Assembly: GCA_033485155.1 (NCBI GenBank)
Contig: JAWQJJ010000002.1
Span: 124,001-188,000 of the forward strand
DNA: 64,000 bases
Direction of reading: 5' to 3'
Origin: Methanomassiliicoccus sp.
Lineage (GTDB): Archaea > Thermoplasmatota > Thermoplasmata > Methanomassiliicoccales > Methanomassiliicoccaceae
Shown here piece by piece: positions 407 to 13,078 of the stretch (its first letter is position 1; every line of letters starts with the position of its first letter). A program made the translations under genes and the position numbers. The notes under the pieces are model-generated. The model was not told where the DNA came from and did no database searches. It saw nothing but the letters and a program-made list of their open reading frames with translations.

Positions 407-2374
407 ATGACCATCGACGTTAGCAACGGCATCATTTATGGGTTGGGGATCGACACCGGCGGCACCTATACCGACGCAGCGATACTGGACCTCCGCACTA
501 AAAAGGTCCTGTTCAAGGCCAAGGCCCGCACAACTCATCACCAGCTGAGCATCGGGCTGGGAGAAGCCATCGACAATGTCTTGGATGCCTTCGGGTCGCG
601 GTCGTTCGACCCCAGCCTGGTGGGGGTGTCCACGACCCTTGCCACCAATTCCATCCTTGAAGGCAAAGGGGGCCAGGTAGGCCTCATCGGTCTGGGCTGG
701 AAGCCACAGGACGGGTGGGACCTGGGCGCCAGTATCCAGAGGTTCGTCGGAGGAGGCCATGACGTCAGAGGCCGGTCCGTCGGTCTCTTGGATGTCGAAG
801 GCATCGAAGCGGCGGCCCGGGATATGAAGGGACGGGTTGATAGTGTGGTCGTGTCCGGCCTGTTCAGCGTTCACAACCCCTATCATGAGATCGAGGCAGG
901 GAAGCTCGTAGGCCAGCGACATGGCATTCCCACCGTCCTAGCTCATCAGCTCACCGGGGAACTGGGGATTCATGAGCGCACAGTGACAGCAGTGCTCAAC
1001 GCTCGCCTGATCCCCGTCCTCCAGGACTTCCTCTCCCGCGTGGAAGGCATCCTTGCCGACCGCCAGATAGCCGCCCCGGTGATGGTATTCAAGGGGGACG
1101 GAACGTTGATGAACATGCGCACGGCGATGGAACGACCGGTGGACACCATCCTGTCCGGCCCGGCGGCCAGCGCCATGGGCGGAGGGGTGCTCGCGGGTAT
1201 CGACGACTGCGTGGTGGTGGATATGGGAGGCACTTCGACCGATATCGCGGTATTGGAGAACGGCGTGCCGAAGGTCACCTCGGAAGGCTCTATGGTCGGT
1301 CAGTGGAGGACCAGGGTAGAGGCTGTAGACATGTGGACAACCGCCTTGGGCGGCGACTCTGAGGTCCGGGCAGGGAGGACCACCAAACTGATCATCGGAC
1401 CTGAACGGGTGGTCCCGCTATGTTTCGCCTCCCAGGAGCATCCTGGGCTGATAGCCAAGATGTCCGCGTTGAGTGAAGCGCGGTTCCTAATTGCACCGCC
1501 CCAGCAACACCGTCTGTCGCCCTCGGAGGATCGCATCGTCGCCTTTCTGCGGAAGAACGGTCCCACGACTCCTGGAGAGCTCAAGAGAGAGATGGAAGAC
1601 ATCATCCTGCTGGACTCGCACCTCCGGGACCTTCGGGCCAGAGGCATAGTACAGGGCATCGGCCTAACCCCGACCGACGTCCTCCATGCCTGCGGTGTTT
1701 TCATCAGGGGCGATCGGGAAGCATCCCGGGTCGGCGTCCGCCTCTACGCCAGCGTGCTAGGGATAGAAGATGACGAGCTTATCCAGGAGGTCATGCGTTC
1801 GGTCACCGCTCGCATCGCCGATGAGGTGATGCACAAGCTATTGTCCGATGAATTGGGGGCACTGCCCGACTCGCCATCGTTCAAGGGTGTCATGGACCTT
1901 ATTACTGGTCGAAGGTGCTGCCCGACGATAAGCCTCAAAGCCCAGGTGAATCGCCCCATCGTCGGGCTGGGCGCTCCGGCTAGGGTCTTCATCTCACCCC
2001 TAGCCGAGATCCTGGGAGCCAGGGTCATCATCCCCGAGGACCACGACGTAGGGAACGCCGTGGGCGCGGTCTGCGGGCAGGTGTCCGAGTTCGTGGACGT
2101 GTTCGTCTACCCCCGGGAGAAGGGTTATGCGGTGTTCTCCTCGCTCAATGCCCCATTCCCCTGTGGGGGTGAGGACGAAGCGGTGAGGAAGGCCAAGGAG
2201 CTTGCGACCAGGTATGCGTTGGAGCGGGCGCGGGCCGCGGGTGGGACGGACCTTGTTGTCGATCTCAGGGTGGAGGAGGAGCGAGGTCTCTCCAACAGCA
2301 CCCTCCAGTCTGACGAGCTGGTCCAGATGAGGGTCCGGGCCCGGGCGGTCGGTCGGCCATCAGTCGAGCTCTAG
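407..2374 (+). CDS. hydantoinase/oxoprolinase family protein (HyuA-type ASKHA fold)
   Basis: This 655-residue protein belongs to the HyuA/oxoprolinase family of ATP-using enzymes with an actin-like fold. The first phosphate loop GIDTGGTYTD is at residues 14-23 and the second, VVDMGGTSTD, is near 270. Between them lies a long alpha/beta region, and near 310 there is a glycine-rich GGDSEVR segment. Residues about 365-430 resemble a small helical insert. The gene faces the UroD-mtrA-mtrH operon tail to tail and the two stop codons share one CTAG (2371-2374). Its placement beside a corrinoid methyltransferase cluster suggests it may serve that cluster, for example in ATP-dependent corrinoid reactivation or substrate activation. 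That role is inference. True hydantoinase activity cannot be read from the sequence. Confidence 0.85.
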   Translation: MTIDVSNGIIYGLGIDTGGTYTDAAILDLRTKKVLFKAKARTTHHQLSIGLGEAIDNVLDAFGSRSFDPSLVGVSTTLATNSILEGKGGQVGLIGLGWKPQDGWDLGASIQRFVGGGHDVRGRSVGLLDVEGIEAAARDMKGRVDSVVVSGLFSVHNPYHEIEAGKLVGQRHGIPTVLAHQLTGELGIHERTVTAVLNARLIPVLQDFLSRVEGILADRQIAAPVMVFKGDGTLMNMRTAMERPVDTILSGPAASAMGGGVLAGIDDCVVVDMGGTSTDIAVLENGVPKVTSEGSMVGQWRTRVEAVDMWTTALGGDSEVRAGRTTKLIIGPERVVPLCFASQEHPGLIAKMSALSEARFLIAPPQQHRLSPSEDRIVAFLRKNGPTTPGELKREMEDIILLDSHLRDLRARGIVQGIGLTPTDVLHACGVFIRGDREASRVGVRLYASVLGIEDDELIQEVMRSVTARIADEVMHKLLSDELGALPDSPSFKGVMDLITGRRCCPTISLKAQVNRPIVGLGAPARVFISPLAEILGARVIIPEDHDVGNAVGAVCGQVSEFVDVFVYPREKGYAVFSSLNAPFPCGGEDEAVRKAKELATRYALERARAAGGTDLVVDLRVEEERGLSNSTLQSDELVQMRVRARAVGRPSVEL

Positions 2375-3261
2375 AGGTCGGTGGCAGCCTGTCTCATCAT
2401 CTCGTCGGCGAAGGACGCGGCGTAGAACACGCGGCGGGCGTGCTCCAGGGGCCCGTAGACCACGAAATCCCCTCCCGCCATAATGGGCATGACCGCCGAG
2501 GCCTCGTCCACGTACTGGTACAGCTTGCGGTCCTCCCTCGCTATGGACGTCAGAGGACGATACGACTCCACCGCGTTATGAAGGGCGCATCCGGCGGGCA
2601 GCCCCCACTTCGCCTTAGCCACCATTATCGCCCTCAGAGCGGAGCCTGCCCCCTGCTCGGCAGCCATCACTGCGGTGTCGACAAGCGGCCTCGTTATCCC
2701 GGCCTGGCGGGCGAGATCGATGAGCCCCGATGGAAGGATACCGCCCCCGTCCTCGAGCAGATAGATCTTACCCTTCAGGTCGGTGTCCCGGGGATTGAAG
2801 GCCATGAGGACCGCGGCGGTGACGCGTGCGTCCCTCACCGCCTCAAGCTCCTCCGAAGTGGTCCCGGCCGATAGAGAATTGTAGATGACTCGTTCGGAGA
2901 TGCCCATCTCCCTCGCCGCCCGGGCGCCGGACAGCCGGACCTCGGCGCTTGGAGAGTCGATGAACAAGGGCATCGATGTCAGGTCGACCGCCTTTCTAAG
3001 GTGGGCCTCCATGGCCTCCGCGGTCTCGGCAAAGAGCATGACTCCACCAGGGGTCGATGTCTCCTCAGCCGCCGCCGCAAGGGATGTGAGCAAGCGCTCG
3101 AACGATCCCTCCTTGCATCGGCCGGTGACGCGATCCTCGATAATGCTATGACGAGGGTAGCCCAATGAGCCGATCATCACCGTGCGATGCTTCCCCGGTT
3201 GTCCTCCGAACCGGACTCCAGAGATCTCGAACTCCTCCTGCTGGCTGTGGAACCGTATCAC
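2371..3261 (-). CDS. mtrH-like: MtrH-like tetrahydropterin methyltransferase
   Basis: This 296-residue protein matches subunit H of tetrahydromethanopterin S-methyltransferase along its length. It opens with FHSQQEEFEISGVRFGGQPG, continues with an MIGSLGY strand, and has an LFIDSP segment typical of the TIM-barrel pterin-binding fold. In the family, MtrH moves a methyl group between a corrinoid protein and tetrahydromethanopterin. The start is a GTG at 3261, directly after the stop of the mtrA-like gene and preceded by a GGGGGTG Shine-Dalgarno sequence inside it, so the two are surely co-translated. No mtrB-G genes are nearby, so this is not the sodium-pumping complex. A dedicated soluble methyltransfer system is more likely. 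The pterin used (H4MPT or H4folate) is unknown. Confidence 0.87.
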   Translation of the reverse strand: MIRFHSQQEEFEISGVRFGGQPGKHRTVMIGSLGYPRHSIIEDRVTGRCKEGSFERLLTSLAAAAEETSTPGGVMLFAETAEAMEAHLRKAVDLTSMPLFIDSPSAEVRLSGARAAREMGISERVIYNSLSAGTTSEELEAVRDARVTAAVLMAFNPRDTDLKGKIYLLEDGGGILPSGLIDLARQAGITRPLVDTAVMAAEQGAGSALRAIMVAKAKWGLPAGCALHNAVESYRPLTSIAREDRKLYQYVDEASAVMPIMAGGDFVVYGPLEHARRVFYAASFADEMMRQAATDL

Positions 3262-3262
3262 C

Positions 3263-4075
3263 TTATTGCACCCCCTTCAGGTATCTCTGCAACCGCCCCG
3301 CGAGCTCTACTGAGGGCACCATCCTTACTACCCCGTCGACCGGATCGAGGATCACCCGGAACTCGGAGGACACGATGGCAATGTCGGTCCAGGTGCTCAG
3401 CCGCTCGCTCGGCATCCTGAGCATCTGCCCCACGAAGTCGTCGGCCAGGCGGTTCAACTGGCGGGCGATGCTCTCTCCCTCGGCCCGCAGCGCACTGCCG
3501 GTGGATGTGAGCGCCGGGGCTGTCAACGGCCCCGGATCTCGGTCCCGGCATTCCTTTATCGCTCTCGCCAGTTCTTCGACGCTCGGCGGGTCGAGCACGT
3601 ACTCGGGATCGTAGGCCACGATCTCCGTCACCTCCTTCACGTGCACCAGATCGACGACCTCCACCTGCTGGCGGAAGCGCTCGACCGCCTCCCGGGACAG
3701 GTTGCAGAGGAAGGGGATGGCCGAACGGGAGCCGATGATTCTCATCTGGTCGTCCACACCGTTTCGGTGCAGGGAAAGGATGGCATTGGCCGGAAAGTGG
3801 CCGAACTCCTCCCGGCCGCAGACGATGAGGAACCGGATGGTATGATTGCTCACGATGTTCGTCACTACCTTCTCCAATCCCATGTTCTCCGTCTTCATCG
3901 TCCCCTTGATGGCATATCCCTCCTCAAGGTCCACCCTTCCCCGCCCGATGATCAGAACCGCCACCGGACTGCTCGGGTCACTCACCACATAATCTCCGGG
4001 GACCAGAGGCCAGGCGCGCCCATCTTCCTCGGGCCGGGCAAGTTCGACTTTTCCCACAATGTCCATGGGGTTCAC
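3263..4075 (-). CDS. mtrA-like: MtrA-like soluble corrinoid protein
   Basis: This 270-residue protein resembles the corrinoid-binding domain of MtrA: WPLVPGDYVVSDPSSPVAV at 22-40, KTENMGLEKVV at 61-71, and EEFGHFPAN at 89-97. His93 aligns with the cobalt-coordinating histidine of MtrA. The canonical C-terminal membrane anchor is absent. Instead there is a soluble tail of about 130 residues ending in an EFRVILDP segment, possibly a DUF4346-type domain. The GTG start at 4075 overlaps the TGA of the upstream methyltransferase gene (GTGA), and an ATG three codons later is an alternative. It probably carries the methyl group between the UroD-type enzyme and the MtrH-like enzyme encoded on either side. 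Confidence 0.85.
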   Translation of the reverse strand: MNPMDIVGKVELARPEEDGRAWPLVPGDYVVSDPSSPVAVLIIGRGRVDLEEGYAIKGTMKTENMGLEKVVTNIVSNHTIRFLIVCGREEFGHFPANAILSLHRNGVDDQMRIIGSRSAIPFLCNLSREAVERFRQQVEVVDLVHVKEVTEIVAYDPEYVLDPPSVEELARAIKECRDRDPGPLTAPALTSTGSALRAEGESIARQLNRLADDFVGQMLRMPSERLSTWTDIAIVSSEFRVILDPVDGVVRMVPSVELAGRLQRYLKGVQ

Positions 4076-5112
4076 TCCCTCACCCGCCGGCCGTAGCGTT
4101 CCACGCTGTCCCTGAGCCGCTTGATATTTTCCACAGGGGTTTTATACCCCATCTCGCAACCCGGTCCGACGATGATCCCCGGGCCGGGACCCCATTGATC
4201 CAGCGTGCCTTTCACCGTTTTCTCCACCTGATCGGGTGTCCCCGACTGAAGCAGCTCAGCGTGGTCGATGCCGGCGATCATGCACGCCTTCCCCCTGACC
4301 GCATCGAAAACCTCCGCGGGGTCCACGTACTTGAGGTGGAGGTGGATGGCCGTCGGACCATACTCCATCTGCGTGGACCAGAACGGACGGGCCGCGCAAT
4401 TGTGGCATATCGTCCTCAGCCCGTTCTCGCGGTATGAGCGTACCGTCTCGTGCATGTACTTCCCGTCGAACTGGGCGTACTGCTCCAGACTTACCATCTC
4501 CCCGCCAGCGGTGCCGTTCTCGATGAAGACCTCCTCCACTCCAATCTCCCTCAGGGCTTCTCCGTACGCCCGGGAGGATTCGGTCAGCACCCCCAGCGCT
4601 TTGGCGGTGACATCGGGGTCGGTGAAGTAGGTCATCATCACGTTCTCCAGACCGAACAGCTCGGAGGCGATGACCGCCGGCGAGTTGATGCAGCCGACCA
4701 CCGCCACCTCTTTGCCTACTTCGTCCATCATGATCGATGCCGCCCGTAGGGGAACCGACCAGAACCTGTCCTTCCGCGGATCGACCGGTGTGAGCTTATC
4801 CACTTCGCTCAACTCCACATACCTGTCCACCCGGGGATAGAAATCCCTCTCAGGCCACTTCCATACCATGCCATGGGCCTGGGCCTCGATCAGGATGTCC
4901 CCCCATCCCGCCATCACATTGTCGAAACCGTACATCCGGTAGGAGGCCAGGGCAAGCTTGGAGAAGATATCTGGGTCATGAAACCCATCGTACCATCGCA
5001 GTCCGGTGTCCTGCAGCAGCCACTTTGCCGCTCCGAGGTGCTGGTAGAATAGCGGCACCCTGTCCGTCTCCTCTCCTTCCAGCGCGGCCTGGAACCGATC
5101 GCGGGGGATCAT
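4072..5112 (-). CDS. UroD/MtaA/CmuA-family methyltransferase
   Basis: This 346-residue protein has the uroporphyrinogen-decarboxylase fold used by methylcobamide methyltransferases such as MtaA, MtbA and CmuA. The zinc-site signature is present as His237-x-Cys239 (in TICHNCAA) with a distant Cys319 in GPGCEM, matching the HxC...C pattern of the methyltransferase branch and not the decarboxylase branch. It is the first gene of a three-gene operon with an MtrA-like corrinoid protein and an MtrH-like enzyme. It may therefore demethylate a small thiol, ether or amine substrate onto the corrinoid, or transfer from the corrinoid to coenzyme M. The substrate cannot be inferred from sequence alone. 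The ATG start is clear, and the cupin gene is transcribed divergently. Confidence 0.87.
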   Translation of the reverse strand: MIPRDRFQAALEGEETDRVPLFYQHLGAAKWLLQDTGLRWYDGFHDPDIFSKLALASYRMYGFDNVMAGWGDILIEAQAHGMVWKWPERDFYPRVDRYVELSEVDKLTPVDPRKDRFWSVPLRAASIMMDEVGKEVAVVGCINSPAVIASELFGLENVMMTYFTDPDVTAKALGVLTESSRAYGEALREIGVEEVFIENGTAGGEMVSLEQYAQFDGKYMHETVRSYRENGLRTICHNCAARPFWSTQMEYGPTAIHLHLKYVDPAEVFDAVRGKACMIAGIDHAELLQSGTPDQVEKTVKGTLDQWGPGPGIIVGPGCEMGYKTPVENIKRLRDSVERYGRRVRE

Positions 5113-5206
5113 GCACCTGAATCTCCGTCGAGAAGTAATAACACTAAGGTCGCCCGCGCCCCGAGCAGGCGCAAGTTTGAGGTCATGCTGTTACACTCTT
5201 TTATTC

Positions 5207-5617
5207 ATGACCAACAGCAAAGGGAAGAAGAAAGGGTTCAATTCAAACATAGAGAGGGACACCTTGGACAATACCAATTTCCGCAAGGTCATGTACACAG
5301 CCAAGTACAGCCAGCTGGTCCTAATGTGCTTGAAGCCGGGTGAGGAGATTGGCATGGAGGCCCACGATGATGGGGATCAGTTCTTCCGTTTCGAGGAGGG
5401 TGAGGGTATGGTCTCGATCGACGGCCATGAGTACAAGGTCAAGGATGGGAGCGCAGTGGTCATACCTGCAGGAGCGATGCACAACGTGACCAACACCGGC
5501 AAGGATCTGCTAAAGATGTACACAATCTATTCTCCCCCAGAGCACCAGGATGGAACGTTGCACAAGACCAAGGCTGAGGTCAAGGAAGAGCACTTTGACG
5601 GCAAGACCACGGAGTGA
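5207..5617 (+). CDS. cupin-domain protein
   Basis: This 136-residue single-domain cupin has a charged leader, then the first motif EIGMEAHDDGDQFFRFEEGEG and the second motif VVIPAGAMHNVTN. The metal ligands of a standard cupin (two His, Glu, His) are only partly kept: AHDDGDQ has one histidine, and the second motif supplies MHN. The start is the ATG at 5207. A longer in-frame extension upstream overlaps the divergent methyltransferase and was rejected. No strong Shine-Dalgarno sequence precedes the ATG, so it may be leaderless. The role is unknown. Such small cupins are often isomerases or ligand-binding proteins. Confidence 0.85.
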   Translation: MTNSKGKKKGFNSNIERDTLDNTNFRKVMYTAKYSQLVLMCLKPGEEIGMEAHDDGDQFFRFEEGEGMVSIDGHEYKVKDGSAVVIPAGAMHNVTNTGKDLLKMYTIYSPPEHQDGTLHKTKAEVKEEHFDGKTTE

Positions 5618-5688
5618 ACAGCAAACCTCTTTCTTACTTTCTCATCAGATTAATCTGGAGGTATGCGTTCTCAGGAAAGGAGATTGAG

Positions 5689-6207
5689 ATGGCGGGAAGT
5701 CGAACAATGGGGGCGGATGACGACGGCATATATGTACGGTTCAGTGAGGAGCTGGGCTTGTACATCGAAATGGTCATCAAGGGAGGAGAGGTGGAAGCGG
5801 TGAGTCTGACGGTGGAAGCCCCGAGTGAGCCTTACCGAACTGACCATCCATTCTTGGAAAGGGTTATTGGGCACATCGCCACCGGAAGGGACGACCTGAG
5901 GGACATCCCGGTGCACCTGGTGACCTCTTCCTTTGATCACCAGGTACTGGAGGCTTTGCGGGAGATCCCCTCCGGCCAGGTGATGAGTTATGGGGAGGTG
6001 GCCAGAAAGCTTGGCCGCCCTCGTGCGGCGAGAGCGGTGGGGAACGCCTGCGCCCGGAATCCGGTGCCAATAATAATCCCCTGTCACCGCGTGGTCCCTG
6101 CCTCTGGGCGTCTCGGTAATTATTCGGGTGGCGGCGGCCCACGGACCAAAGAGGCGATCCTGGAAAGAGAAGGCGCGCTCGGCGGGCCGAAGGAAAAAAA
6201 GCTCTAA
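5689..6207 (+). CDS. ogt: methylated-DNA--protein-cysteine methyltransferase
   Basis: This protein removes alkyl groups from O6-alkylguanine onto its own cysteine, repairing DNA in a suicide reaction. The signature IIIPCHRVVPASGRLGNYSGG carries the acceptor cysteine, and the helix-turn-helix segment SGQVMSYGEVARKLGRPRAARAVG is intact. The start chosen is the ATG at 5689, preceded by AAAGGAGAT. This gives 172 residues, the usual size for the family, and drops an upstream extension that reads as a non-homologous hydrophobic stretch. It sits 71 bases after the cupin gene and could share a transcript. Confidence 0.93.
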   Translation: MAGSRTMGADDDGIYVRFSEELGLYIEMVIKGGEVEAVSLTVEAPSEPYRTDHPFLERVIGHIATGRDDLRDIPVHLVTSSFDHQVLEALREIPSGQVMSYGEVARKLGRPRAARAVGNACARNPVPIIIPCHRVVPASGRLGNYSGGGGPRTKEAILEREGALGGPKEKKL

Positions 6208-6261
6208 GGATCAGTTCTCTCAAGGGAATAAAATAAAGGTGGATGAGAAAAGGTTTAAGGT

Positions 6262-7713
6262 TCAGTTCAATTCCGCTTTTTCTTTGGTGCGGGCACTCAT
6301 TCTCTCCTTGTAGTTCTCCCGCTGAGAGTATAGCCACAGAGGTATGAAGAGGACTAGGACCCCGAACCCTACCATCGTCGGTACGATGCCATAGGCCAGG
6401 TTGTTGATGTACACGGCGCCGATCAGGAGGAAAGGCATCTGCAGGATGGCCAGGACCAATGCTATCCACTTCCATCCGCGTGGTGCCTTATATGGCCTCT
6501 CCAGATCCTTGAGGGCGGGATCCCGGCTCGCCTTGACATAGGCGAAGAGGGCGATGGCGAACACGAACACATAACCGATTGCGGACATGGCCAGAATAGC
6601 CACCGGGTTCCCCTGGAGGATGAACAGCAAAGCCAGGTTGAACAAGGCGATGACGAGAATCCCGCGCATAGGTTCGCCCTTGCGGTTGGTCTTGGCGAAC
6701 CAGCGCGGGAGGTTGCCTTCCAGGGCCATAGCATGCATGGCCCTGGCCCCGGCGGAGTAGCCGATCTGGATGAGAAGGATGCAAGCAAATACCATCAGCA
6801 AGATGACGATCGACCCGGCGAGGGAACCGAAGCACATGACCGCAACGCCGTACAGAGGGGAGATCGGTTCAGCGAGGACGCCTTCCACTCCCAGGGCTCC
6901 GATGACCGAGGTCTGGATCAGGACGTACATAATAAGGCACACGATGCCCGCGGCAAAGAGGGCTTTTGGTACGTCCACGGAGGGCTTTTGGTACTCTGGG
7001 CCATATACCGCGACCATCTCCCAGCAGCAGGCTGACCACTGGGCGATGACCACCAGCCCCAGGACCATCATCATATGGTCGCCGTCCCAGGTCCAATCAG
7101 CGGGGACCATGGCGGAGGTAAGGTTCTCCAGGTGGAAGTTGCCAGTGGCGAAAGGAGCTAGAGCGATAAGAGCGATGGGCACAATGGTCAGCATGCCTAC
7201 GATCAGCCCGAGCAACGCTCCTGACTTCAGCCCGGTGGAGGCGATGATGGCCAAACCTCCTAGGATGATGAGCCCTAGGATGATATTGAGCTGCAGTTGA
7301 TCCATTGCAGCGAGGTCCGGGAACACCGCCCCCAGGTAGTTGCTGATGATGATTATGAAGACTGCCAGCCCAGGCGCCCAGACCAACCAATAGGCCCATC
7401 CGCAGAATCCGCCGATGAACCGTCCCCGATCGAATCTCTTATTCTCGCCATCCTTCGACTTGAAGATCTCCTGGCAGAAGCCAGGTATACCTGAGGCGTT
7501 AGGGAAGGTGGTAGCTAGCTCAGCGAAGGCCATGTTCTGTATGAATCCCTGGATGACCGACAGTCCCCATAGCAGTACCGAGGCGGCCCACAGGAGCTCG
7601 ACCGTAATGCCGATGCTGGGGATGATGGCCAAAGGGATGCCTATGCCGATCAGGAAACCGTGCTTCCAACTTATGCATCGCTTGAGGCCGCATTGCTCGT
7701 TCGTATCTGTCAT
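6262..7713 (-). CDS. APC-superfamily permease
   Basis: This 483-residue polytopic protein has about twelve predicted membrane spans and the overall layout of the amino acid-polyamine-organocation superfamily. It includes a glycine-rich first span (FLIGIGIPLAIIPSIG) and a short charged loop with SKDGENKRFDRG between spans two and three. The C-terminus is a lysine- and glutamate-rich cytoplasmic tail. The substrate cannot be assigned. The gene is expressed from an upstream region that holds two near-identical 19-bp palindromes around a TATA box, so it is probably tightly regulated. Its location between a methyltransferase cluster and mtaCB makes an amine, amino acid or corrinoid-related substrate possible, but that is inference. 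Confidence 0.88.
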   Translation of the reverse strand: MTDTNEQCGLKRCISWKHGFLIGIGIPLAIIPSIGITVELLWAASVLLWGLSVIQGFIQNMAFAELATTFPNASGIPGFCQEIFKSKDGENKRFDRGRFIGGFCGWAYWLVWAPGLAVFIIIISNYLGAVFPDLAAMDQLQLNIILGLIILGGLAIIASTGLKSGALLGLIVGMLTIVPIALIALAPFATGNFHLENLTSAMVPADWTWDGDHMMMVLGLVVIAQWSACCWEMVAVYGPEYQKPSVDVPKALFAAGIVCLIMYVLIQTSVIGALGVEGVLAEPISPLYGVAVMCFGSLAGSIVILLMVFACILLIQIGYSAGARAMHAMALEGNLPRWFAKTNRKGEPMRGILVIALFNLALLFILQGNPVAILAMSAIGYVFVFAIALFAYVKASRDPALKDLERPYKAPRGWKWIALVLAILQMPFLLIGAVYINNLAYGIVPTMVGFGVLVLFIPLWLYSQRENYKERMSARTKEKAELN

Positions 7714-7827
7714 ATCTAGACTCCCAATGATCGAGGTTTGATGTTCGATTGTTAATGATCGATCATAAGCCGACCCAGCTTTCGCTAGGACAGCTGATCA
7801 TTCATAAGCCAGCAGGTCGCTGGAAGA

Positions 7828-7846
7828 GTTGGATGTTACATCCAAC
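7828..7846. promoter_or_regulatory. operator palindrome, copy 1
   Basis: This is a perfect inverted repeat, GTTGGATGTTACATCCAAC. It lies where transcription of the permease gene should start, about 25 bases downstream (minus direction) of a TATA box at 7868-7877. Its sequence nearly repeats at 7899-7917. A dimeric repressor binding here would block initiation. Confidence 0.7.
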
Positions 7847-7867
7847 GAAGCCTCGATTCAAGGGTAC

Positions 7868-7877
7868 GATATATAAT
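7868..7877 (-). promoter_or_regulatory. TATA box for the permease gene
   Basis: On the minus strand this reads CATTATATAT. It lies between the two palindromes and about 155 bases before the permease start codon, so the transcript would carry a leader of roughly 130 bases. Confidence 0.55.
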
Positions 7878-7898
7878 GTTTTACGCCCTGTAAACATA

Positions 7899-7917
7899 GT
7901 TGGATTATACATCCAAC
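7899..7917. promoter_or_regulatory. operator palindrome, copy 2
   Basis: GTTGGATTATACATCCAAC is a second inverted repeat with the same seven-base arms (GTTGGAT/ATCCAAC) and the same five-base spacing as the copy at 7828-7846. The copies are 71 bases apart, about seven helical turns, which would suit cooperative binding or looping. Confidence 0.7.
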
Positions 7918-7945
7918 TTGCTACGAGGTTAGGTCCCTTCTCAGT

Positions 7946-8275
7946 TCACTCCTCGAAGTGGATGCAGATGCTTCCCTCCTTGATCGCGTGGCGCTTGGAG
8001 ATCATGCCCACCTCCATCCAGACGACGTTGAATACCGCTGCCGGTATGAGGCAAGTCGGGGTGAGATGACATTCTGTGGAGAGGCGCATGATCTTCGAAC
8101 CCTCCAACTGAATATAATCGTCCGGACCGACCTGGCCAAGGTGTCGGCCATAGTCGCGAACATCCTTGCAGGTCGACCGGATCCTGACCTTAATCGTCCC
8201 ATCCGGTTGTTTATCTGCATCTATCAGTGTCTTATGGTCACAGATGCTCATGTCAACTCGGACCTTGGAAGTCAT
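7946..8275 (-). CDS. small DUF6951-like conserved protein
   Basis: This 109-residue protein has the look of the DUF6951 family seen in methanogens: an N-terminal strand with a cysteine (SICDHKTLIDAD), a central IRSTCKDVRDYGRHL, and a C-terminal LTPTCLIPAAVFNVVWMEVGM in which cysteine and proline are family-typical. Four cysteines suggest metal or cofactor binding. A GAGAGGT Shine-Dalgarno sequence precedes the ATG, and an AT-rich box lies near 8307. It is transcribed toward the permease and the double operator. The family name is from memory and the biochemical role is unknown. Confidence 0.7.
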   Translation of the reverse strand: MTSKVRVDMSICDHKTLIDADKQPDGTIKVRIRSTCKDVRDYGRHLGQVGPDDYIQLEGSKIMRLSTECHLTPTCLIPAAVFNVVWMEVGMISKRHAIKEGSICIHFEE

Positions 8276-8572
8276 ATTATCGACCTCTCATGGGCCTCTG
8301 GACATTTATGATTTGCACGTCCAGAACGGCCAGGAGAGCCTCTTAAGTGTATAGGTCGGCTCACAACGTGATGTGGCGACTCAAGATCCACGCCGCACGT
8401 ACCTTGAGGATCACCGGATCATCGCCATGGTGTAGATAGAAATAATCGAGATGTGGCATCACGGCAAGGTTCACGTATTATTAACGTTCTATATGGATAG
8501 ATAAACGTCCTTCTCGAGGACAACATTATCATTCTAGTTTTTAAGAACGGACACTTACAATCGAGCATTAGC

Positions 8573-8579
8573 TTTATAT
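8573..8579 (+). promoter_or_regulatory. upstream TATA box in the mtaC leader region
   Basis: TTTATAT lies about 270 bases before mtaC and about 30 bases before the start of the proposed structured RNA. The rest of 8276-8571 shows no supported gene, only a weak 5-bp inverted repeat at 8507-8521 (GTCCT/AGGAC). Confidence 0.4.
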
Positions 8580-8604
8580 CGTCTTGGGGCAAATCGAATA
8601 ACTA

Positions 8605-8690
8605 AGTGCGAGCATAGTGTCGATCTACCCATCCTAAAGGCACCTTGTTGGGGTTGTGCCTGAGGGAAGCCAGATGCTAACGGTAGGTCT
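8605..8690 (+). ncRNA. candidate structured RNA upstream of mtaC
   Basis: An eight-base-pair closing stem can form between GATCTACC (8622-8629) and GGTAGGTC (8682-8689), with one wobble. It encloses a six-base-pair hairpin, AGGCAC (8638-8643) with GTGCCT (8656-8661). AGCAT at 8611-8615, outside the closing stem, can pair with ATGCT at 8674-8678 inside it, forming a possible pseudoknot. A TATA box lies at the right distance upstream and a T-rich tract follows. This could be an independent small RNA or a leader element of mtaCB. It matches no RNA family I recognise. Confidence 0.35.
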
Positions 8691-8751
8691 TAATTTAATC
8701 TAGCTTTAATTATAGATTTCTTCTCTATTTTACTAAAAAAGTAAACAATTG

Positions 8752-8759
8752 TTTATATA
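8752..8759 (+). promoter_or_regulatory. TATA box of mtaCB
   Basis: TTTATATA, preceded by a purine-rich stretch fitting a BRE element (AAAAAAGTAAAC), lies 82 bases before the mtaC start codon. Transcription should begin near 8783, giving a leader of about 60 bases. Confidence 0.7.
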
Positions 8760-8761
8760 CT

Positions 8762-8779
8762 ATTCCCGTTATTGGGAAT
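8762..8779. promoter_or_regulatory. palindromic operator-like site at the mtaCB start site
   Basis: ATTCCC and GGGAAT form a perfect inverted repeat separated by GTTATT. It sits immediately downstream of the TATA box and just before the expected start of transcription, a typical place for an archaeal repressor site. Confidence 0.5.
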
Positions 8780-8840
8780 CTCGACAGTCCGAGTTCCGCG
8801 GTGGGGTTCGGGCGGTTAAACTAGAGGAGAGAATGAGAAA

Positions 8841-9626
8841 ATGCTAGACTTCGACAATGTGAAAGCCGACATGATCTTGACTCGGTATGACATCAAGATG
8901 GAGTCGCAGGAGAAGCCAGAGGCAATTGCTGCGAGGATGCTTCCCAAGGACCCGCTCCTGAAGAAGGTCGCAGAGGATGTATTGAACCTGAAGGGCAAGC
9001 TCATCGAGGACGATGTTAAGGCTGCTCTGAAGGAGAACTCCCCTGAGGACGTCATCGAGGGTGGCCTGCTGAAGGGCATGGATGTTGTGTCTGAGCTTTA
9101 CGGACGCGGTATCTACTACCTGCCGCACGTCATGGTCGCCTCTGACGCCATGGACAAGGGAATGAAGATCGCTGAGGCTGCCCTCCAGCACGGAAAGAAG
9201 GTTAAGGGCACCATCGTTATGCACGCCGCTGAGGGTGACCCCCACGACATTGGCAAGAACATCGCCGCTGTGCTGCTGAAGTCCAACGGCTTCGGTGTCG
9301 TCGACCTGGGCAGGGATGTCTTGGTCTCCGATGTTGTCGCTGCTGTCGAGAAGAACAAGCCCCAGATGGTCACCGGCACCGCCCTTATGACCACCACCAT
9401 GTCCGCTTTCCCCAAGATCGCGGAGAGGCTGGAAGAGATGGGCATAAACATCCCGTTCGTCTGCGCCGGCGGTGCAGTCAACAGGCAGTATGTGGAGTCT
9501 TACCCGATGGGTGTCTACGCCGAGAAGGCCGCCCAGGGACCCGCCCTTGCTACCAAGACCGTTGAGGGCTGGGACTGGAGGAAGTTGAGAGACAAGTGGG
9601 ACGACCTGATGGCGGGGAAGGCTTAA
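8841..9626 (+). CDS. mtaC: methanol-specific corrinoid protein
   Basis: This 261-residue corrinoid protein accepts the methyl group of methanol from MtaB and hands it to an MtaA-type enzyme for coenzyme M methylation. It has an N-terminal helical cap domain (about 25-120) and a Rossmann-like B12 domain with the DPHDIG motif at 133-138, where His135 is the lower cobalt ligand. GTALMTTTMS and the CAGGAV loop complete the cofactor site. The ATG at 8841 follows GAGGAG. An upstream ATG at 8833 opens only a four-codon frame. Codon use is strongly biased toward a narrow set, as expected for a highly expressed catabolic gene. It forms an operon with mtaB. Confidence 0.95.
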   Translation: MLDFDNVKADMILTRYDIKMESQEKPEAIAARMLPKDPLLKKVAEDVLNLKGKLIEDDVKAALKENSPEDVIEGGLLKGMDVVSELYGRGIYYLPHVMVASDAMDKGMKIAEAALQHGKKVKGTIVMHAAEGDPHDIGKNIAAVLLKSNGFGVVDLGRDVLVSDVVAAVEKNKPQMVTGTALMTTTMSAFPKIAERLEEMGINIPFVCAGGAVNRQYVESYPMGVYAEKAAQGPALATKTVEGWDWRKLRDKWDDLMAGKA

Positions 9627-9640
9627 TCGAGGTGAAAAAA

Positions 9641-11044
9641 ATGTCGCTGAAGAACTTTACTAAGATGGAATATGGCTCCGCAGATGAGATCGTTTTCGGA
9701 GATGCGAAGTACCCCCTGTCCTACGGCCTTGGCCTCAAGGTCGGCGCTGGGTTCGTTTCCCCCGAGATCAACTTTGCCCCCAGGCCTGGGTCCGAGAAGA
9801 ACCCGGAGTCCCTGACCAAGGAGTACGTCGAGTACATCACCAAGGACATCATGAACCGCGCGGTCACCCTCGGGTTCCCCTCCCTCCAGCTGGAGAACGA
9901 GTGGATCCACCAGATGGGTAACAACCCCGAGAAGTTCGCGAAGCCCGTCGTGGCTGGCCAGAAGGCCGTAATGCAGAAGTTCCACGACGAGTACGGCGTT
10001 GCTTGCGCTATCAGGCACACCGTGGCTGACCCCAGGCTCGCCGAAATGGGTCTGAGGCCCGGCATGGACAAGACCCACATGTACCCTGAGAAGACCCTGG
10101 ACTCCCTCGAGGTCGCTGCGGCGAACGGCGCCGATGTGCTGTCCATCGAGAGCATGGGCGGCAAGGAAGTCGCTGACTACGCTATCGTCAGGCAGGATAT
10201 CCGCGGCTGGCTGTTCGGTATCGGCTACCTCGGCTCCATCGACATGGAGTGGCTGTGGCCCCAGATCGTTGACGTTGCCAAGAAGCACAAGATCGTGCCT
10301 GGCGGCGACACCAACTGCGCCGGTGCCAACACCTCGATGTTCATGGCCGGCGGCTACCTGGACAAGGATATCCCCCGTGTTTTCGCTGCCGTCACCCGTG
10401 CCATCGCCTCCGCCAGGACGCTCGTGGCCATCGAGTGCGGTGCCACCGGACCGGACAAGGACTGCGGCTACGAGGGCCCCGTCCTGAAGGCCATCTCTGG
10501 CCGCCCGTCGGCCCAGGAAGGCAAGGGCGCTCAGGATGCGCACGCTGACCTGATGGGTAACCTCATCGCTCAGGTGTGCGACCTGTGGTCCAACGAGTCC
10601 GTCGAGTACCACCCTGAGTTCGGTGGCTCGTCCGTCCAGTGCTGGCTCGGTGTCATCGGGTACGAGGCTGCCCTGATGAACGCTGCCAAGCAGATGAAGC
10701 AGGACAAGGTCCTCAGGGACGTCTACGTCGCTTCCGACAGGTTCCGGAGCCCCGAAGGGTTCTGCATGGCCTACGACAACGCCTACAAGATCGGCCAGGC
10801 CATCGTGAGCGAGGGCAACAACTACTACCTCAGGGCCAAGGCTGCCGGTCTCAAGGCCTGCGAGCTCATCCAGGAGTCCAACCAGAAGGGCAAGCTGAAG
10901 CTGTCCAAGCAGGAGAAGGACACCCTGAACAAGATGCTCACCGACCTGAACTCCCTCCCGTCCGAGGAAGGCAAGTTCGTCGACTGGGCGCTGAAGGAGT
11001 ACAAGAACGTACCTGCCTTCAACCCCAAGAACTACGAGCTCTAA
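9641..11044 (+). CDS. mtaB: methanol:corrinoid methyltransferase
   Basis: MtaB splits methanol at a zinc site and methylates the cob(I)amide of MtaC, the first step of methanol-dependent methanogenesis. The 467-residue protein has the expected length. The zinc ligands can be placed at Glu170 (in DVLSIES), Cys226 (GGDTNCAG) and Cys275 (PDKDCG). Their spacings of 56 and 49 residues equal those remembered for the Methanosarcina barkeri enzyme (Glu164, Cys220, Cys269). The start is the ATG at 9641 after a GAGGTG Shine-Dalgarno sequence, 14 bases past the mtaC stop. An in-frame upstream extension overlaps mtaC and was rejected. Codon bias is as strong as in mtaC. No mtaA follows. Confidence 0.96.
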   Translation: MSLKNFTKMEYGSADEIVFGDAKYPLSYGLGLKVGAGFVSPEINFAPRPGSEKNPESLTKEYVEYITKDIMNRAVTLGFPSLQLENEWIHQMGNNPEKFAKPVVAGQKAVMQKFHDEYGVACAIRHTVADPRLAEMGLRPGMDKTHMYPEKTLDSLEVAAANGADVLSIESMGGKEVADYAIVRQDIRGWLFGIGYLGSIDMEWLWPQIVDVAKKHKIVPGGDTNCAGANTSMFMAGGYLDKDIPRVFAAVTRAIASARTLVAIECGATGPDKDCGYEGPVLKAISGRPSAQEGKGAQDAHADLMGNLIAQVCDLWSNESVEYHPEFGGSSVQCWLGVIGYEAALMNAAKQMKQDKVLRDVYVASDRFRSPEGFCMAYDNAYKIGQAIVSEGNNYYLRAKAAGLKACELIQESNQKGKLKLSKQEKDTLNKMLTDLNSLPSEEGKFVDWALKEYKNVPAFNPKNYEL

Positions 11045-11132
11045 GCGAGAGATCGTATGGTGGAAACCCTTTCAAACCCCTTCCCTCACCTTTTTACGTT
11101 AATCATCGCGCCATTGCTCAAGGGCGGTGAGC

Positions 11133-11477
11133 ATGAAGTTTATGTCTCCAACGCTCCCAATGCATTCCCGAGGGACGAGAATGCAAGGAGCACCGAGCAA
11201 CCGGAGACGCCGCAGGTATGGGCCGATGGGACCATGGTGGCCGCCGTGGTACGATCCCCGCTATGGCCCCCCAGATGTCATGTATCCCGGTACTAACCCC
11301 TGGAACCCCTTCGCCCCAGCCATGCCCCATCGCCTGGAGGACGAGATCAACTGGCTGGAGGAGAGGCTGGAGGACCTGGAGGACGAGAAAGTGGAGATCG
11401 AACGGGCCATCGAGGACATCAAGAAGGAGATCGATAGGAAGAGGCGGGACGTCCGGGAGCAGGCCGACGTGCGGTGA
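11133..11477 (+). CDS. DUF5320-like small protein with C-terminal coiled coil
   Basis: This 114-residue protein has an N-terminal half rich in arginine, glycine, proline, tryptophan and tyrosine (RRRRRYGPMGPWWPPWYDP). The C-terminal half is a strongly charged coiled coil in which LEERLEDLEDEKVEIERAIE shows a heptad pattern. This two-part layout is typical of DUF5320 proteins, which are often found with NifX-like and Mrp proteins; both occur a few kilobases downstream. The ATG at 11133 follows GGCGGTGA. A GTG two codons earlier is possible. The function is unknown. Confidence 0.75.
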   Translation: MKFMSPTLPMHSRGTRMQGAPSNRRRRRYGPMGPWWPPWYDPRYGPPDVMYPGTNPWNPFAPAMPHRLEDEINWLEERLEDLEDEKVEIERAIEDIKKEIDRKRRDVREQADVR

Positions 11478-11563
11478 TCGCCAGAAAGGTCGCTCTCGGC
11501 GGACCGATTTAGCCCGTGTAAAAGTGCGCCGTTATAGTAATAAAATAGGGAAAGGGTTTGGGC

Positions 11564-13078
11564 TCAACCGGCCGCCTTCTCCGCCTTGGAGTTCTCCGCG
11601 CTCCGCGTTTCCAGCAGGGAAACTCCCATGGTGACGGCGAAGCCCAGGGGTATCGACACGATGCCAGGGTTGTTCAGCGAGAAGATGGCGTCATGGCCCA
11701 TCATCGTCGGGGAGATAACGATCAGCAGGATCGACGATATCAGCCCGGCTAGAATGCCGTAGACGATGCCTTTCTCACTGGTCCGCTTCCAGAACAGCGT
11801 GCACAGCAGCGCCGGCAGGTTGGCGGAGGCCGCGATGGCGAACGCGAGGCCGACGAGGAAAGCCACGTTCTGTCCCTTCGACAGGATGCCCAGCACTATG
11901 GCGATTAGACCGACCCCGATGGCGGTGCCCTTCGATATCAGGAGAGCGCGCTTCTCGTCGGACTTCCTGCCCAGCACTTCGGCGTAGATGTCGTGGGCGA
12001 TGGCCCCGGCTGAGGCCATGATCAGGCCAGACACCGTCCCCAGGATGGTGGCGAAGGCGATCGAGGAGATGATGGCATAGAACACATCTCCGCCGATGTA
12101 GTCCGCTAGCAGGGGGGCGGTGAGGTTGGCGTCGGTGGGGTTGATCACTCCGGGCACTCCTTGGTTGAAGAAGTAGATCGCTCCCAGTCCCAGGAACAGG
12201 ATGAGCATGTAGAATATGCCCATGACCACGATGGCGACGACCGTGGACTTCCTAGCATCGGCTGGCTTGGGCACGGTGAAGTACCGGATCAGTATGTGCG
12301 GTAGCGCTGCCGTGCCCAGGATGAGGGCCAGGGCCAGGGAGACGAAGTCCAGGGGGTTGGTGTACTTCATGCCCGGGGACATGAAGGTGTCCCCTGACAC
12401 CACCTTCCCGCTGGGCAGGTGCAGTGTGCTGCCGATGATGTTCCCGATGAACTCGAACGGCCCCATGCCCGCGGCGATCAGAACGCCGACCGTCAGGGCG
12501 ATGACCGCTATGAGGAGCATGAACCCCTTGATGAACTGGACCCAGGTGGTGGAGACCATGCCGGCGGTGGCCACGATGACCACGACCAGCAGGCCGATGA
12601 CCACGACTCCGACCTCATAGTCCAGACCGAGCAGCGGACCGACGATGGAGCCCGCACCGACCATCTGTGGAATCAGGTAGAAGACGCTGACCACCAGGGT
12701 GGAGATGGCAGCTGCCAGCCTGATCTTGCGGCTCTTGAACTTGGAGGTCAGGGCGTCGGCGAAGGTGTACTTGCCTATGGCCCGCAGCGGTTCGGCCACC
12801 AGGAACAGGGCGACGATCCAACCGGCCAGGAAGCCGATGGCGTAGATGAAGCCGTCATACCCGGCGAACGCCACCAGGCCGGTGATGCCTAGGAAGGACG
12901 CTGCGCTGAGGTAGTCTCCGGCGATGGCGAACCCGTTGACGAACCATCTGACGCCTCCTCCCGCGACGTAGTAGTGGCCGGCGGTACGGACCCTGCGGCT
13001 GGCGTAGATCGAGATGGCCAGCGTCAGGACGGTGATGGCGATGAAGATCGCCAGACTGAGAGGTTGTATCTCGGCCAT
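11564..13078 (-). CDS. actP: sodium:solute symporter, ActP-type acetate permease
   Basis: This 504-residue protein has about thirteen spans and the solute:sodium symporter core: SRRVRTAGHYYVAGGGVRWFVNGFAIAGDYLSAASFLG near the N-terminus and GTVSGLIMASAGAIAHD later, both close to ActP/YjcG. ActP imports acetate or other short monocarboxylates with a cation. Acetate is a likely carbon source for a methylotrophic methanogen that lacks a full methyl branch, which would give this importer a clear role. The gene starts one base after the stop of the UspA-DUF485 fusion gene, and the two form an operon, as bacterial yjcH-actP do. Confidence 0.9.
   Translation of the reverse strand: MAEIQPLSLAIFIAITVLTLAISIYASRRVRTAGHYYVAGGGVRWFVNGFAIAGDYLSAASFLGITGLVAFAGYDGFIYAIGFLAGWIVALFLVAEPLRAIGKYTFADALTSKFKSRKIRLAAAISTLVVSVFYLIPQMVGAGSIVGPLLGLDYEVGVVVIGLLVVVIVATAGMVSTTWVQFIKGFMLLIAVIALTVGVLIAAGMGPFEFIGNIIGSTLHLPSGKVVSGDTFMSPGMKYTNPLDFVSLALALILGTAALPHILIRYFTVPKPADARKSTVVAIVVMGIFYMLILFLGLGAIYFFNQGVPGVINPTDANLTAPLLADYIGGDVFYAIISSIAFATILGTVSGLIMASAGAIAHDIYAEVLGRKSDEKRALLISKGTAIGVGLIAIVLGILSKGQNVAFLVGLAFAIAASANLPALLCTLFWKRTSEKGIVYGILAGLISSILLIVISPTMMGHDAIFSLNNPGIVSIPLGFAVTMGVSLLETRSAENSKAEKAAG

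Follow-up and report, generated by a model that had tools for sequence, protein, structure and literature searches.

Methylotrophic methanogens of the order Methanomassiliicoccales need corrinoid proteins for growth, and archaeal regulation of corrinoid supply is, to our knowledge, poorly known. In bacteria, cobalamin riboswitches govern regulons that comprise cbi/cob synthesis, cobalt uptake by CbiM, import by BtuFCD, and CobN. The gene set described here is the same, but archaeal promoters carry a 19-bp DNA palindrome as the predicted control element. A search for a cobalamin riboswitch found none: across 124 kb of regulon loci and at positions 5000-12000 of the window, the whole 64-kb stretch of DNA that was analysed (G000:C2:124001-188000), no match to an Rfam family attained the gathering score.

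DtxR/IdeR-type sites are 19-bp palindromes with seven-base arms and a five-base centre and lie near start sites. The palindrome layout and the proximity to the start site are shared by the operators described here, but the arms have another sequence and the DtxR gene of this genome, upstream of a FeoB-type gene, has no such site. Archaeal Lrp-type promoters carry several regularly spaced operators. An A/T-rich centre and multiple sites at near-integral helical spacing are found here as well, but no Lrp protein is linked to the sites and the long pairs are symmetric about a TATA box. The TrmBL1/TGM operators of Thermococcales (TATCAC-N5-GTGATA) have six-base arms and a five-base spacer, and their position decides the effect, which is a likeness to the operators here; they differ in serving sugar metabolism, in sequence and in phylum. 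We found no description of the motif or of the regulon in the openly licensed PMC literature; subscription literature was mostly outside the scope of this search, and absence is not proof.

The operator pair at the permease promoter

Two palindromes, operator 1 (GTTGGATGTTACATCCAAC, 7828-7846) and operator 2 (GTTGGATTATACATCCAAC, 7899-7917), match GTTGGAT-N5-ATCCAAC exactly in both arms and start 71 bp apart, just as an earlier sequence-only reading of this DNA had stated. They sit between the gene for an APC-superfamily permease (6262-7713, minus strand; PF13520, 138 bits), the target gene of the pair, and a DUF6951 gene (7946-8275, minus strand; PF22263, 62.9 bits), which is directly upstream in the same direction and not behind the operators. 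The minus-strand TATA box that the same reading had placed between the palindromes is TTATATAT at 7869-7876; operator 1 lies over the expected permease start site and operator 2 upstream of the box, again as described. What had been missed, besides the order-wide cobalt/corrinoid regulon, is the symmetry: operator 2 mirrors operator 1, the midpoint (7872.5) of their centres at 7837 and 7908 is exactly the centre of the TATA box, and TATATA at 7870-7875 is itself palindromic and readable on both strands.

The 64 kb of the window contain no further match at up to two mismatches. A set of 100 dinucleotide shuffles contained on average 0.20 such matches, at most one and never two, which bears out the claim that the pair is unlikely by chance. 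The distance of 71 bp is about 6.8 helical turns and is short for a classic DNA loop.

Among NCBIfam models, the permease matches the TMAO permease best (174 bits, cut-off 690); the ethanolamine permease model gives 76 bits where 382 are needed. Homologs were found with the permease as query in 59 of 147 genomes of the order, and 30 homolog loci were examined for an upstream site with up to two mismatches. Such a site was present at all five orthologs of 68-100% identity, but at none of the 25 homologs of 55% identity or less (Fisher p = 7e-6, phylogeny not corrected). Across two families of the order, the operators thus go together with this group of permease orthologs. Three orthologs of the same genus have two sites each, 71, 70 and 71 bp apart (congeners include L233 and L235), and upstream of the pair in L235 the end of a DUF6951-like gene can be read. 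That two operators control the permease, the part of the earlier interpretation that stood, is well supported by this conservation and may be regarded as probable. Judged by these orthologs, the permease is a real member of the regulon, with its own link to corrinoids indirect. An operator pair at 70 bp was also found at genes for an acetate-transporter-type protein (AceTr) in G019 and G021, of which the one in G021 scores above the cut-off. Because a threonine-dehydrogenase-like alcohol dehydrogenase (ADH, below its cut-off) has the same pair design, uptake of a cobamide side-chain precursor by the permease is a possibility, which we hold lightly.

It should be mentioned that the DUF6951 gene directly upstream of the operator pair adjoins the methanol methyltransferase genes mtaCB, and that MtrH-, MtrA- and URO-D-type genes stand in a row at 2371-5112 (minus strand), as methyltransferase parts near the mtaCB region.

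Genes at the operator in the genome and in the order

A scan of the whole genome for GTTGGAT-N5-ATCCAAC, which the sequence-only reading had proposed as the way to define a regulon, indeed brought one to light: 12 sites with at most one mismatch, against none for the reversed control, mostly at cobalt/corrinoid genes. With up to two mismatches the numbers are 20 and 2. Most sites stand at genes that serve to take up cobalt, to build the corrin ring or to transport B12. Transport is represented by BtuF-FecCD-ABC (B12-type binding protein, FecCD permease and ATPase), a second BtuF and the cobalt transporter CbiM, synthesis by CobA, CobT, CobN and the sirohydrochlorin chelatase CfbA/CbiX with CfbE; CbiT is behind two sites with two mismatches. 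Further sites are found at the radical-SAM enzyme CbpB with its divergent amidohydrolase and at the zinc alcohol/threonine-dehydrogenase-like ADH mentioned above, whose cut-off is that of NCBIfam. CobN, CobA, CobT, CbiM, CfbA, CfbE and CbpB score above curated NCBIfam cut-offs. For one site, whose neighbours are a helicase gene and a ferredoxin-type gene, no clear link to corrinoids is seen. Of the eight sites with two mismatches, four (L013 and one each on C2, C5 and C10) either had no corrinoid neighbour that we identified or were outside the examined set. One palindrome is common to the promoters of functionally linked cobalt/corrinoid genes.

At CbiM and BtuF, the operator has a second palindrome of the type AGTAAT-N7-ATTACT close to it on the upstream side (L023:9977-9995 and L016:8560-8578), as if a second regulator acted at these two genes.

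Allowing one mismatch, the motif occurs in 130 of the 147 Methanomassiliicoccales genomes with 628 sites in total (sum of the per-genome counts); the reversed control gave one match each in 5 genomes. Of 389 genomes drawn from the phylum, the ones that do not belong to the order had 0-3 matches each, which is background only. G016, a 99% complete genome of the same family, has a single match, of a sequence also seen as background outside the order. The neighbours of 151 sites were surveyed in 18 sampled genomes. A gene from a reference list of 29 mostly cobalt/corrinoid families starts between 60 bp before and 420 bp after the site end at 109 of them, a fraction that describes the sites and does not test their role, since the list is partly circular, many of its members having been chosen as site neighbours. 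The commonest neighbours are BtuF, CobT, ADH, an NAD-binding sirohydrochlorin-type enzyme, a dockerin-type binding protein, CbpB, a NifH/NifD-like fusion and CobN. CobT adjoins a site in 10 of the 18 genomes, and the site is in this sense conserved at orthologous genes. Among the other 42 sites, CobQ, CobB and a CobS/ChlI-like subunit were found later. Sites at genes without a clear corrinoid role adjoin PQQ/PKD surface proteins, a helicase, prephenate dehydratase, the CCA-adding enzyme and McrB; those at the surface proteins, McrB, the CCA-adding enzyme and prephenate dehydratase may be due to chance or may mark further members. MtaC-like genes have sites in G001 and G047, and part of these matches may fall within coding sequence.

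The NifH-NifD-type fusions behind the operator have about 700 residues (L163:5504-7600, L160:17016-19169, L167:5160-7286, L155:7615-9924 and L152:9633-11741). G086 has three copies; the nearest family is CfbC, below its cut-off. In three genomes of the genus the motif also adjoins a conserved protein without a Pfam match (L026:6640-7227 and L108:4124-4684, both minus strand, and L197).

At the CbpB locus of five genomes, a peptide of 31-32 residues (about VDGNGLSHYIIYD..GE-PF) is encoded near the operator (L020:8107-8202, plus strand; L119:4933-5028; L179:2066-2161; L113 and L209, minus strand). It resembles the CbpA precursor TIGR04164, with 30.5 bits against a cut-off of 35. In a cobalt/corrinoid regulon, such a modified peptide could serve to scavenge metal or corrinoid.

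Promoter geometry and the search for the regulator

Within 200 bp of the sites, 64 neighbouring matches with up to three mismatches were counted, against 2.15 in shuffles. The distances of these pairs cluster at 29-35 bp and at 66-73 bp, and none falls between 49 and 65 bp. For the long class we analysed 18 pairs of 64-75 bp, 16 from the 18-genome set and two from the permease promoters of G020 and G018, both of the same genus as the window. In 17 of them, the best TATA-like 8-mer, ties included, is no more than 2.5 bp away from the midpoint; the midpoint TATA score is 13.4, compared with 2.24 (sd 1.12, maximum 6.75) for 2000 shuffles. The exception is L167 in G086, without a TATA at the midpoint; in L190 the midpoint TATA is one of six ties. 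The long pairs belong to permease, ADH, CbpB/amidohydrolase, AceTr and BtuF, that is to several gene families, and the geometry is therefore not that of a single inherited promoter, with the reservation that orthologs are not independent. Pairing at about 71 bp recurs as a design.

For 85 sites whose assigned genes all have the same strand, the position of the best TATA-like 8-mer has its maximum 26-40 bp upstream of the centre of the site. The usual archaeal TATA-to-start spacing would put such sites on the transcription start. This geometry, in which single sites are usually about 35 bp downstream of a TATA-like box and over the expected start, suggests repression. The same site beside cobalt/B12 genes across the order points to a shared putative repressor. 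It is very likely, in our opinion, that the palindromes are operators of one dimeric factor that governs an order-wide cobalt/corrinoid regulon and that, with the permease TATA box bracketed, represses when cobalt or corrinoid is plentiful.

Binding, repression and the signal are what we infer from this arrangement. At the permease promoter, one dimer would sit on the expected start site and a second at the mirror position upstream. With cobalt or corrinoid plentiful, a dimer on each palindrome would deny TBP/TFB and RNA polymerase access to the box; in times of shortage, repression of the permease would be lifted together with that of the genes that take up cobalt, make corrin and import corrinoid. 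For the second operator there are three possible roles: raising occupancy, stopping the box from firing the other way, or allowing contact, and thus cooperation, between the dimers.

The second of these roles can be extended to a divergent promoter, in which transcription starts in both directions from a palindromic TATA box and is silenced in each direction by one of the operators. This would explain operator 2 and is compatible with an order-wide repressor. The symmetric TATATA of the window and the CbpA/amidohydrolase locus, with divergent genes on both sides, are in its favour, but a transcript running to the right in the window would lie antisense to DUF6951, with no gene of its own to be seen there, so that we regard it as possible but on the whole doubtful.

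A regulator gene with the site at its own promoter, for which the sequence-only reading had advised to look, was not found among the Fur, DtxR, NikR and AsnC-type candidates examined. The A/T-rich operator centre and the spacings of 29-35 bp (three turns) and about 71 bp (about seven turns), with nothing in the gap between the two classes, would suit a Lrp/AsnC-type regulator that acts in arrays, several dimers bending or wrapping the DNA, with the looping that the sequence-only reading had considered. AsnC_trans_reg was found in all 16 chosen genomes, but paralogs are abundant and genomes without sites have them as well. The siroheme-decarboxylase-type AsnC family PF17805 occurs in none of the 147 genomes, and a 322-aa tandem AsnC-type (tandem-HTH) protein beside a site in G135 was rejected for its presence in only 33. 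Small ORFs near sites were scanned as well, 61 in all: 58 out of 64 selected from five genomes, and three others. They matched 55 families, and the 25 of these that were listed include one AsnC-type HTH match, probably the G015 protein added to the scan. Such a regulator would give the shared repressor a family and does not conflict with it; as matters stand, this assignment is unlikely.

Still less probable is an ordinary iron or nickel regulon under a metal regulator of known family. A Fur-family gene adjoins CbiM and a site in several relatives, and Fur had been proposed on account of this neighbourhood, but only 63 of the 147 genomes have it, and none was found in G014, G019, G021, G055, G073 and G086, which have 8-15 sites; this occurrence speaks against Fur. 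DtxR, whose consensus the 7-5-7 arm geometry resembles, is present in 127 of the 147 genomes, but none of 30 DtxR loci examined from these had a site with up to two mismatches. In this genome, its gene is just upstream of the FeoB-type GTPase (read from sequence) with a TTTAGG/CCTAAA-like sequence, and its neighbour, its different promoter motif and the lack of sites speak against DtxR as well. NikR_C proteins are the most widespread (143 of 147 genomes), but G013, G014 and some others have the weak class only, and the matches are weak in G014 and G117, with 10 and 6 sites. The motif is present in hundreds of copies across the order, but the idea that these are incidental or mobile repeats unrelated to promoters can be dismissed, since only about 19 bp are common, the copies are concentrated at cobalt/corrinoid genes, and they follow permease orthology and keep a fixed relation to the TATA box.

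Cobalt and corrinoid supply in Methanomassiliicoccales

An order-wide regulon under a single dimeric repressor, the reading we prefer, invites a wider proposal, which is quite conceivable but which we would not yet call probable: a putative archaeal cobalt/corrinoid repressor may replace the B12 riboswitch throughout the order, may clamp the TATA box from both sides at some promoters, possibly shutting both directions, and may also control the conserved small modified peptide of CbpA/CbpB type as a possible cobalt or corrinoid scavenger. What is gained is an operator stated explicitly, together with its member genes, a distinctive promoter design and a route to the regulator. The regulon ties the permease, the threonine-dehydrogenase-like ADH, the CbpA peptide and the NifH/NifD-like fusions to cobalt or corrinoid supply.
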